Shown piece after piece: positions 44,578-48,218 of a stretch of 61,339 bases of DNA. Positions within the stretch are counted from its first letter, which is position 1; each line of letters begins with the position of its first letter. Source of the stretch: Candidatus Lambdaproteobacteria bacterium RIFOXYD2_FULL_56_26 (GTDB taxonomy: Bacteria; SAR324; XYD2-FULL-50-16); NCBI GenBank assembly GCA_001783715.1, contig MFNF01000015.1, positions 1 to 61,339 on the forward strand, in the 5' to 3' direction. The position numbers and the translations under genes are program-made. The notes under the pieces are model-generated. The model searched no databases, was not told where the DNA came from, and was given only the letters and a program-made list of their open reading frames with translations.

Positions 44578-44943
44578 ATGACGGACCGCCGAAAGGAGCA
44601 GGGGGCGGTTTTAACAGAACAAGGGGGAATGAGAACTCAAGAGGCTTTGCGCCGCCTCTTGGAGATGGAGAATACGCCGGGTGAGATGCTCAAGGTGGAG
44701 GTCAGCGACCTTGCCAAGCAGCTTTCCAACGGCAAGCAGGTGCTGCAACTTCCCAAGGTTTCCACCGAAGAGATCAAAGCAGAACTGGGCCCGGAAAAGG
44801 CGGCCCTTCTGGCCGAACGGATCGAGGTGGAGGCCCAACGGCTGATGAACAAAGAGGGTGTGCGTCCCAAAAGCCTCCCCAAACCCAGCCGTCCCATCAT
44901 CAAGTTGATCGACCCGGAAAAAAAGGAAGACGGTTTGGCCTAG
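44578..44943 (+). CDS. Small protein of unknown function, last gene of the mnmE operon
   Basis: A 121-residue soluble protein with a helical N-terminus (TQEALRRLLEMENTP), a hydrophilic middle (VSTEEIKAELGPEKAALLAE) and a Pro/Lys-rich tail (KSLPKPSRPIIKLID). No family recognised. It begins 7 bp after the FlaG-like gene, with AAGGA just ahead; a second ATG at 44629 with GGGGGA upstream could be the actual start. Flagellar function is suggested only by its neighbours. Confidence 0.55.
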   Translation: MTDRRKEQGAVLTEQGGMRTQEALRRLLEMENTPGEMLKVEVSDLAKQLSNGKQVLQLPKVSTEEIKAELGPEKAALLAERIEVEAQRLMNKEGVRPKSLPKPSRPIIKLIDPEKKEDGLA

Positions 44944-45815
44944 AGACGGCTCTGCTTATCGCTCCCCGAAACTCTTCCCTCCCAGTTCCAGGGCTCTCTC
45001 CCCAGCCAGTCCTGAGGAGTGAAGTGGACCCCATCGTCAAGACAGGCTTTCCAGCTTTTTAAGATAGCCCTTTGGTTCAAGCGGCCAAGTCCTGAACTGG
45101 GCTTTGGCTGTCTGAAGCTGCGCCAGGGTTTTGGCCGGACCCGCTGTCTGGGTAAGGCCAAGGTTGAGCTGGAATTCTTTCTGAATGGGTTCGCTTGTAA
45201 CCTCCAACGGGCAGTTGGATTGGTTTCATAGGGAGCCGTCTGCCCAAAAACGGGGCCACACCCCCAAAGCAGGGGAACAAAGAACTGCGCAGACCCGCTT
45301 CTGACGGATTTGGCCGAAAAAACCACTGCATTGGAACAGGGACCAGAGGATTGTGCCTGTGCAACGGTCTCGCGGCGGTGTTCTGACCAAGGGGTCCACT
45401 GCAGAGGCGACACTTCGTTTACCGAGGGGCCAATCAGAACGATGACAGCGGTGGGGAATTAGGCCGAAGTGGGTGCGGAATCTAAACCGCCGTTTTCGGC
45501 TATTGGGCTGATGGAGATTGAGCCAAGTTTACGGCAGGTCAGTGGTGCCTGCTACCTGTCCGCCTAACGGCGGCTAGGGGCGGCCCCGCAATGCCTTCCC
45601 CACAAGGCTTCGCCTTGCGGGGACCCCTGGAGGGGCCGGGCCACGGCTTCGCTCGTGACCAAGAAAAAAACCTCAGCCTTCGGCTGGGGGGAGGGGGAAA
45701 AGGGCGGCTGAAGCCGCTAGAGCCCCTACGGGGCTAGGCAAAAGGTAAGGCCCTAAAGGGCCGTAAAAAACCAAAAGGTAACGCTTGCGGCTTCGCCCCA
45801 AGCTGTGCCCGTCCC
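44944..45815. other. Gene-free region with possible gene remnants and a hairpin array
   Basis: About 870 bp with no intact gene. From 44944 to about 45240 the minus strand has protein-like but interrupted frames, possibly a decayed gene. From about 45556 onward it is packed with short GC-rich hairpins (see the repeat entry). It lies just downstream of the SUMF1 variable region, on the side where a DGR would keep its template and reverse transcriptase; neither is present. Confidence 0.6.
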
Positions 45816-45825
45816 CTACGGGGCC
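45556..45825. repeat. Array of short GC-rich hairpins
   Basis: At least eight stem-loops within 270 bp: CCGCC/GGCGG (45560-45573), CCCCACAAGGC/GCCTTGCGGGG (45598-45622, one mismatch), CCCC/GGGG (45624-45635), CCTCAGCC/GGCTGGGG (45671-45689), GCGGC/GCCGC (45704-45717), AGCCCC/GGGGCT (45721-45735), GGCCC/GGGCC (45749-45762), CCCC/GGGG (45813-45823). Loops are 3-4 nt, often TTC or TAC, and CCCCTACGGGG occurs twice. The pattern resembles REP-like palindromes. Confidence 0.75.
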
Positions 45826-47918
45826 GTCCTCAGGAGGCGGAAGCCGAGGAGGTTGTGGCTGCCCGACGGGTAGCGGCTGTCCCGATAAGCGCAACGCAGG
45901 GTCCTCGGGTAGAAGAGCCAGGAACCGCCCCGATACACTCGGTTCGAGCCGCCACTGGGGCCGGTCGGGTTGGTCTGTTTCTTACTGGGGTAATCCCCAT
46001 ACCAATCCTGCACCCACTCCCAGACATTCCCGCTCATGTCGTAGAGGCCCAAGGCATTGGGGGCAAAGCTCCCTACCGGGGTGGTTCTTTGACGGTTCTT
46101 GCCTTGCACGGAATAGGACTCTTTGTTAGCGCTGCCGTTAAAGTTGGCCTCCCTGGGGTCCAAGATGTCCTTCCCATTCCCAAACTTCACCTTCTTCCCC
46201 CCCTCCCGGCAGGCGTACTCCCACTCTGCTTCCGTAGGGAGGCGGTACTTGCCGTCACTTTGGGCGTTCAGCTTGCCTAAAAAGTCTTGGATGTCATTCC
46301 AACTCATATTTTCAACCGGATTGTTGGCTCTTTCAAAGTCGGAGGGGTTGTTACCCATCACCTTCTCCCACTCCTCTTGGGTCACCTCGTATTTCCCTAG
46401 GTAAAAATCACTGACACAAACTTCATGAAGCCTCTCGTCGTCTTCACCTTCCTTGAAGCTGTCGCCCATTAGGAAACAGCCGCCCTTGATGGGGACAAAC
46501 CTTTCCAGCCTTTCCAGCCTTTCCAAGGCGGCAATTCTTTCAGCCTCCAACTTCGCTTGTTTTCCCTCCGACTCTCTGAGTTTCACCCTCAGCCCTTCCA
46601 CTACCGCCAATTCCGGGAAGGGCACCGGGGTCTCTAGGTTAACCGTTTGTTTGGCTCCCACCCCTGGGTGTAACGCCTCGGCTTTGGTCAGTTTGGTCCC
46701 GGTCTTGTCCTTGGCCCCGTTGCTCAAAGCCGCCTTCGCCTGCACCGTAATCAGGGTTTTCGTTGCATAGAGGGCCTTGGCTTGTTCCCGGTCTTGGTAG
46801 GGCCAAGTCCCGGACCAGCTCTTTTTTCCTTGGAAAATTGTGATTGGGAAGTTGGAGGCCACCGCATCGGGGCTGCCTAGGCTGGCGGTCAGTTTGACCT
46901 CCGGTAGGGTGAACCGCTTGGCCTGGAACTCGGCCAGTCGTTTCTCAAAGGGTTCCAAGACCTCAATCTTCTGGCTCAGGTAGGTTTGTTCTTGCTGAAC
47001 CAATCGTTTGCTCTCCTCAAACCCGGCCTCGGTCGCCCGCTTCTTGAACTCCTCTGGGGTCTCGAAGGGGTCTTTCTCCACCTTGCTGGCTAAAGCCAGG
47101 TTGGCCTGAGACTTTTTCCACTGGGCCTCAAACTCCTTTTCGGTAGCCGCAAACTCCGCTCTCAAGGCATCAGCCTCAGCGATGGCCTTCTCCAGGGAGA
47201 GGCTGTCATCGATCACCACCCACTTGGCCCGGTTCAGCTCCGCCTGCCTCGCAATCTCCCGCCAGCTCGCTTCGTTCTCCAATTGGGCCTTTTTGATCTT
47301 GTCCTGCTCCGCCGCGATCTTGGCCAGTTCTTCGCTCCGGGCCTGGGCCTGGGCGGCCAGCATGGCATCGATCCCTAGGTCCGCTACTTGCCGGTTGGTC
47401 AATCTGGTGGACAGTGTGGCCAAGGTTGATTTGAGGTTCGCCAAGTCCCCTTCATGGTCGGCGGTTGCCGTCTTGACGATGGTTCCGTCTTTGACGCTTA
47501 ACACCTTGGCCGAAACTTGGTATTTCCCTTCCCCCAACTTTGCCACGGTTGAGGAAATCACCCGATCCACCCCCAGTTGGGCACCAATGGTGGTGGCACA
47601 TTCGTCTCTGGTGCAGTTTTGCACCTTTTGGATTTCGTCGGGGGACATCTTGGAGACTTCGGCGCTGCTGGCCAGTTGGTACTCCCCGCTTTGGGCAATG
47701 GAGGATTGGAAGGCATCGGAAAAGGCGGTCCGTTGGTCTGGGGTCAGGTCTTTGCCTTCCAAGGGAAGAACGGCCACCAGCTGTTTGTTGACCTTGGATA
47801 CATTCTCAAACTCAACTTGGGCTTGGGCCAAGATTGTCCCCTTAAGCCCAATCGTGGCCGACAGCTTCAAAGAAACCACCGCCCCCTTGGGTTCCGTCTC
47901 CCCTCGAACCGAAATCAC
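45816..47918 (-). CDS. SUMF1/FGE-fold protein with a DGR-type variable C-terminus (main part)
   Basis: A 700-residue frame. Residues about 43-170 form a CsgG/FlgO-like domain (LVAVLPLEG, CTRDECATTIGAQLGVDRV). A long charged helical region (about 185-440) follows, and from about 470 a SUMF1 (formylglycine-generating-enzyme fold, C-type lectin) domain: GGCFLMGDSF, YEVTQEEWEKVMG, RLPTEAEWEYACR, GLYDMSGNVWEWVQDWYGDY, RGGSW and final GFRLLRT. The last 35 residues have the features of a DGR variable region. The GTG taken as start lies directly after a TAA in the same frame, with no signal peptide of its own and no well-placed ribosome site, so this is probably the larger part of one interrupted gene. 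Confidence 0.85.
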   Translation of the reverse strand: MISVRGETEPKGAVVSLKLSATIGLKGTILAQAQVEFENVSKVNKQLVAVLPLEGKDLTPDQRTAFSDAFQSSIAQSGEYQLASSAEVSKMSPDEIQKVQNCTRDECATTIGAQLGVDRVISSTVAKLGEGKYQVSAKVLSVKDGTIVKTATADHEGDLANLKSTLATLSTRLTNRQVADLGIDAMLAAQAQARSEELAKIAAEQDKIKKAQLENEASWREIARQAELNRAKWVVIDDSLSLEKAIAEADALRAEFAATEKEFEAQWKKSQANLALASKVEKDPFETPEEFKKRATEAGFEESKRLVQQEQTYLSQKIEVLEPFEKRLAEFQAKRFTLPEVKLTASLGSPDAVASNFPITIFQGKKSWSGTWPYQDREQAKALYATKTLITVQAKAALSNGAKDKTGTKLTKAEALHPGVGAKQTVNLETPVPFPELAVVEGLRVKLRESEGKQAKLEAERIAALERLERLERFVPIKGGCFLMGDSFKEGEDDERLHEVCVSDFYLGKYEVTQEEWEKVMGNNPSDFERANNPVENMSWNDIQDFLGKLNAQSDGKYRLPTEAEWEYACREGGKKVKFGNGKDILDPREANFNGSANKESYSVQGKNRQRTTPVGSFAPNALGLYDMSGNVWEWVQDWYGDYPSKKQTNPTGPSGGSNRVYRGGSWLFYPRTLRCAYRDSRYPSGSHNLLGFRLLRTAP
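45828..45935 (-). other. Candidate DGR variable region (VR) with downstream hairpin
   Basis: Between RGGSW and LGFRLLRT the codons at the ligand-contact positions are almost all NNC or NNT: ctc, ttc, tac, acc, tgc, tat, gac, agc, cgc, tac, ggc, agc, cac, aac. This is what adenine-specific mutagenesis of AAC/AAT template codons would give. The 3' end is GC-rich, as required of an initiation of mutagenic homing site, and is followed at once by the CCCC-GTA-GGGG hairpin (45813-45823), whose loop holds the TAG stop. Confidence 0.65.
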
Positions 47919-48218
47919 TTAACCGAGATTGACCCCGCTCTGGGCCTCACTCAGGGAGATCAATTCAAATTCAGGGAAGGCCTTGGAGAGGGTCTTGTAA
48001 AGCTCCGTCTCGACCCGCTTGGAGAGATCATCGCTCTTTTGGCTGGCCCGGTTGACCACCTGGACAATGATTTTTTTGTCCGGGTTTTGGGCGATCTGCC
48101 CTTGGGCCAGGGTTTGGGTCGCGTTCTGTACCGCTTCGGAAAGAGTTTCTGCTTGAGCGGTATTGGCCGAAAACAGAACGAGGCTAAGGGCAGCAACAAG
48201 CCAACGGGTTCGCTTCAT
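47919..48218 (-). pseudogene. Signal-peptide and N-terminal segment of the SUMF1 protein, cut off by an in-frame TAA
   Basis: A 99-residue frame: signal peptide MKRTRWLVAALSLVLFSANTAQA, then a FlgO/CsgG-like start (KIIVQVVNRASQKSDDLSKR, FPEFELISLSEAQSG). The frame continues into the 700-residue SUMF1 frame without shift; only one TAA (47919-47921) separates them, and it falls in the middle of the alpha/beta domain, whose last strands (AVVSLKLSATIGL) are on the far side. A nonsense mutation in one gene, stop-codon readthrough, or reinitiation at the adjacent GTG are possible; a sequencing error too. A separate small periplasmic protein is the least likely reading. Confidence 0.65.

Follow-up and report, generated by a model that had tools for sequence, protein, structure and literature searches.

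A probable orphaned DGR variable region at the 3′ end of a SUMF1-domain gene in Candidatus Lambdaproteobacteria bacterium RIFOXYD2_FULL_56_26

The 3′ end of a SUMF1-domain gene in Candidatus Lambdaproteobacteria bacterium RIFOXYD2_FULL_56_26 raises the question of whether it is the variable region of a diversity-generating retroelement (DGR) and, if so, which template and reverse transcriptase (RT) shaped it. The gene lies on contig MFNF01000015.1, in the 61,339-nucleotide stretch analysed here and called the window throughout. A preliminary description had proposed a DGR-type variable region at this position, arguing from codon content and an adjacent hairpin. The proposal is supported, mostly by the template of a relative, verified targets, a homing-site base and the 3′ flank, whereas the arguments originally advanced for it are weak. 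In our view the segment is probably a DGR variable region without its template and RT, that is, an orphaned and probably fossil target; the evidence that appears decisive for a DGR origin comes from outside the window, from the templates, targets and flanks of relatives.

The SUMF1-domain gene and its codon pattern

The SUMF1/FGE-domain gene occupies positions 45816..48218 of the minus strand and begins with an ATG at 48218. It is broken in frame by a TAA at codon 100 (47919..47921, minus strand), which was missed in the preliminary description and which separates a signal-peptide-like start from the remainder of the gene. The open frame that follows (47918-45816, minus strand) encodes 700 aa with a DUF3280/DUF2380-like domain and an FGE-sulfatase domain; upstream of 47918 the same frame continues to the ATG, and the frame of approximately 800 codons is otherwise intact. 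The orthologue in G003, which belongs to another genus of the same family, has AAA (Lys) at the codon of the TAA and is 66-80% identical to the window gene over the compared stretches. Because dS is far above dN in this comparison, the window gene was under purifying selection, and the TAA has therefore either arisen recently or been introduced by the assembly.

The C-terminal domain (45828..46505, minus strand) matches the Pfam FGE-sulfatase profile of the SUMF1, C-type-lectin-fold class over its full length (E=3e-52, profile positions 3-255 of 255), an assignment by profile that implies no claim of enzymatic activity. The candidate variable region corresponds to the last 42 codons, at the 3′ end of the gene, as in the lectin-fold target class. 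Solved relatives include the T. denticola variable protein 2y3c, and by analogy with the known fold the variable residues would be placed on the ligand face of what is putatively a secreted ligand-binding protein.

According to the preliminary description, the ligand-face codons are almost all NNC or NNT (NNY), the mark of adenine mutagenesis of Asn codons in a template. At the 12 columns where the template of a relative (G004, see below) has the Asn codons AAC or AAT, all 12 window codons are indeed NNC or NNT, 11 of them with an identical third base. The codon list given there, however, omitted interspersed codons of other types: over the last 41 codons of the gene the count is 27/41 (66%), compared with 47% across the entire gene and 59% across the entire FGE domain, and of the 660 stretches of 41 codons in the gene, 36 are at least as rich. 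Verified DGR targets have NNY at 11-12 of the 12 diagnostic columns, and the FGE paralogues in the window's own genome (L025 and L026) at 6/12. In a control comparison of about 120 segments from homologues, FGE homologues without a DGR detected in their locus showed a mean of 0.78 at these columns, with 14/115 reaching 100%. Because some of these homologues may themselves be remote targets, this control is conservative; even so, NNY content is frequent among homologues, and we rejected it as proof of a DGR target. In a Nitrospirae MAG, we also observed a SUMF1 homologue (L090:6001-6711) with loop codons that are nearly all Asn, as if a variable region stood in the unmutated template state.

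Templates, targets and flanks in related genomes

In a protein search of 58 genomes, the closest SUMF1-domain matches to the window protein were found in G006, G009 and G004 (59-61% identity), which represent three genera of the family to which the window's genome belongs. RT homologues adjoin these matches in G004 and G006; in G009, the RT homologue is on a different contig from the match, one with its own SUMF1 protein. Template/target pairs are present at all of the fetched loci (G004:C31, G006:C101, G009:C86 and G009:C132), and an RT is on three of these four contigs as fetched. The differences between template and target fall almost exclusively at template adenines, with 23/38 adenines vs 5/94 other sites in G004, 14/31 vs 1/96 in G006, 22/34 vs 2/95 and 19/34 vs 1/95 at G009 C86, and 15/28 vs 0/75 at G009 C132. 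At the G004 locus the order is HRDC, Avd and DGR RT, and the template overlaps the end of the RT gene (L074:7203-7268). The G009 C132 contig (L076, 4226 bp) holds little but a DGR, namely a 722-aa protein that combines PEGA-like repeats with a SUMF1 variable region, a template, an RT and an Avd-like protein; its ends share 90 identical bases, reflecting either a circular element or an assembly effect.

The segment at 45824..45950 (minus strand) gives a gap-free alignment with the G004 template repeat. Differences occur at 20/36 adenine sites vs 13/91 other sites (p=5e-6), a measure of adenine-specific change taken against the template of another genus that has 13 non-adenine differences; in the reverse direction, window adenines differ at 1/17 sites compared with 32/110 others. 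Because the Asn codons of the template sit where the whole family varies, this bias alone is no proof of mutagenesis, and many FGE homologues without a known DGR are also adenine-biased against the G004 template. We therefore rejected adenine-biased mismatch to a foreign template as stand-alone evidence.

The remaining sites are more informative. At non-adenine sites, the window segment has an identity of 0.86 to the G004 template, and no homologue apart from the G004 DGR's own target comes as close; the mean for homologues is 0.58 (sd 0.10), and the verified variable regions of the family's other DGRs reach 0.71-0.78. Among codons for the same residue, third bases are identical at 16/23 within the variable region (window vs G004 template) and at 40/105 upstream of it (window vs G004 gene), a difference with p=0.006, and the variable region is therefore nearer to the template than the rest of the two genes are to each other. 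The G006 and G009 targets likewise resemble the G004 template at synonymous sites, and nucleotide constraint could contribute to this likeness. A viral origin was rejected: on the viral contigs that we found, no encoded homologue is closer than 47%, and the highest non-adenine identity of a viral homologue to the G004 template is 0.78. Extending the search for closer templates to the phylum covered the 52 genomes already searched for the class and gave nothing new. In a tree of FGE domains, which has long-branch rows, the window groups with G006 at moderate support (88/84).

The window also resembles the relatives' targets at the presumed end of the homing site (IMH), which we placed by inspection at GAGGAC (45826..45831, minus strand). 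The templates of G004, G006 and G009 C86 read GAGCAC and their targets GAGGAC, so the window is in the target-type state and differs here from the relatives' templates. The preliminary description had likened the GC-rich end of the region and the hairpin CCCC-GTA-GGGG directly after it (45813..45823) to the IMH-plus-hairpin arrangement of known DGR targets such as BPP-1 mtd. The hairpin is a 4-bp stem that includes the stop codon of the gene, and the 11-mer, with 4 copies in the genome vs 3 for a reversed control, is no commoner than expected from that control; we rejected it as unspecific. Verified SUMF1 DGR targets do share a 3′ flank with the window (45704..45776, minus strand), which consists of TTTTGGTTTTTTAC at 45763-45776, TTACCTTTTGCC and then GC-rich hairpins at 45722-45734 and 45704-45717 (minus strand) that are also present in the relatives' target flanks. 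The window flank aligns better with those of the G004, G006 and G009 variable regions than does any of 1565 other window segments, and genome-wide 1-3 of 2722 other segments align with them equally well. Because the three flanks are mutually related, we count this match as one piece of evidence rather than three.

The window's own genome and its resident Lcl_C DGR

The statement in the preliminary description that the window contains no RT or template repeat was borne out: searches of the window for RT, Avd and HRDC, which extended to the non-coding downstream stretch 44943-45815, gave no match, so that the nearby RT and Avd of a complete DGR are absent from this locus. The imperfect copy of the segment for which a search had been recommended was not found either, BLAST-type searches detecting no near copy of the SUMF1 segment anywhere in the genome. 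With the G004 template as query, the only match of the same type of search was the window itself. The assembly comprises 68 contigs and is 97% complete.

The other recommended search, for a DGR-type RT, did succeed, but this RT belongs with an unrelated Lcl_C template. The only RVT_1 match in the genome is on contig C42, where we identified a DGR (L027:7903-13616) that is genuine and of textbook type. It comprises an RT-MutS_I fusion, an Avd (bAvd; PHROG 'Avd protein of DGR'), a separate MutS_I-domain protein and a 143-bp template (L027:9841-9983), the first part of which (L027:9841-9868) overlaps the start of the RT gene such that the ATG of the RT lies inside the template. Six related variable regions were detected for this template, two each on C42, C61 and C62, and the four on C61 and C62 (L079 and L080) are remote. 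Each carries changes at 19-23 of 46 template adenines vs 0-13 of 97 other sites. Two target proteins on C42 are assigned to Lcl_C (DUF1566) by Pfam, and those on C61 and C62 terminate in sequence of this type. A 926-aa protein on C62 (L080:4428-7208) apparently contains two successive Lcl_C domains, and the C42 template matches twice inside it. Between the two variable regions on C61, a short stretch (L079, C61:77755-77823) matches the 3′ end of the C42 RT (23 residues, 83%), which suggests that targets spread through partial duplication of the DGR locus. None of the matches of the C42 template falls in the SUMF1 segment, which gives only chance-level alignments in L027, and the C42 DGR was rejected as the diversifier of this segment.

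Origin of the variable region and comparison with known systems

In the reading that we prefer, an orphaned target, an ancestral DGR of a kind still present in the same family would have transcribed a template repeat rich in Asn codons. The template would have been copied with errors at adenines, and the cDNA would have homed into the 3′ end of the SUMF1-domain gene, replacing lectin-fold loop codons by NNY while leaving other bases unchanged. The cassette would then have been lost, or would never have moved with the gene, fixing the last variant, and a later premature stop would have detached the secretion signal from the gene product. Past mutagenic homing and loss of the cassette at this locus are thus proposed on comparative grounds. 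Because the genome searches revealed no template of the SUMF1 type, the sole detected RT serves an Lcl_C template and the gene has a premature stop, present activity as a target is unsupported. That no template turned up in an assembly 97% complete speaks for an orphan, and the premature stop speaks for a fossil. Of the two alternatives named in the preliminary description, a remote or an orphan target, the orphan therefore stands, but a currently active remote target does not.

A SUMF1-type DGR that is absent from the assembly could nevertheless still be acting in trans on the variable region, from the missing approximately 3% of the genome, from a plasmid or phage that was left unbinned, or from other cells in the population. 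Such an arrangement has a counterpart in Thiohalocapsa PB-PSB1 DGR 7, the assembly is divided into 68 contigs, and a relative carries its SUMF1 DGR on the 4.2-kb contig with identical ends. Against this, the locus retains no trace of a template, RT, Avd or HRDC, there is no SUMF1 template elsewhere in the genome, and the stop lies upstream in the gene; we judge ongoing diversification in trans to be improbable. The one DGR that the genome does possess, on C42, is genuine and has remote targets on other contigs, but no similarity is detectable between its template and the SUMF1 segment, and its six analysed targets are the ends of Lcl_C genes, which leaves the chance that it diversifies the segment as a remote target close to nil.

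It is also conceivable that the segment was never a DGR target and is the end of an ordinary SUMF1/FGE paralogue with loop codons that are NNY by chance, its likeness to templates arising from the fact that these encode Asn at positions that are variable throughout the family. Other FGE homologues do show both the adenine bias against the G004 template and a high NNY content. This account leaves unexplained the top non-adenine identity, the excess of synonymous-site identity in the variable region, the target-state homing base and the common 3′ flank, and the paralogues L025 and L026 from the same genome do not share the full NNY pattern; we hold it to be very unlikely. An orphaned variable region remains our preferred reading.

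The N-terminal part of the gene points to a possible history of its target module. Over its N-terminal 462 residues, the window ORF has 73% identity to its G003 orthologue (L078:3612-5672, G003:C2), a protein that has an Lcl_C domain in place of SUMF1 and ends like the targets of the resident DGR. On C61 and C62 of the window's genome, proteins related to the window's N-terminal domain are encoded directly upstream of Lcl_C targets. SUMF1 and Lcl_C lectin modules therefore share a scaffold or neighbourhood in this family, which suggests that modules may have been exchanged. Tentatively, and with the odds rather against it, the scaffold might be a secreted DUF2380-like protein with exchangeable SUMF1 and Lcl_C modules that can be re-armed from a still-active template, the window gene being a module left after a switch. 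If so, losing one DGR would not stop diversification of the scaffold. With SUMF1 and Lcl_C modules on one scaffold, this family offers a setting in which to trace how DGR targets are gained, lost and swapped.

SUMF1-type DGR targets are an already known kind of system, to which the window variable region adds a case. It is recognisable without its own template through comparison with that of a relative, and the signals with weight are non-adenine and synonymous identity, the homing-site base and the flank, whereas NNY codons alone have none. RT-first surveys of fragmented metagenomes miss remote and orphan targets (PMC8144416).

The DGRs on G004:C31, G006:C101 and G009:C86/C132 share with the window the C-terminal domain, the position of the variable region, the homing-site end and the 3′ flank, and the G004 template is homologous to the window variable region. 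In contrast to the window, which has a premature stop and no template, RT or Avd, they have adenine-specific template/target pairs. The C42 DGR likewise acts by adenine mutagenesis of a C-terminal protein module on partly remote targets, but it differs in its target module, its unrelated template and its RT fused to MutS_I. The mtd DGR of Bordetella phage BPP-1 also has its variable region at the 3′ end of a C-type-lectin-fold gene, followed by the IMH and a downstream hairpin (PMC4372165); unlike there, the hairpin adjacent to the window variable region is the short stem over the stop codon, and the hairpins shared with relatives are located approximately 80-120 bases further on. Remote targets are well known from cyanobacteria as remote variable proteins (PMC7517822), and PB-PSB1 DGR 7 has variable regions without a perfect template match in the genome, intact DGR copies occurring as structural variants in the population (PMC10907252). 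Like the window, these remote or incomplete targets have lectin-fold variable regions at the 3′ end of the gene, away from any RT. For most of them the genome supplies a matching template at another locus, whereas none was found for the window, which comes nearest to PB-PSB1 DGR 7.
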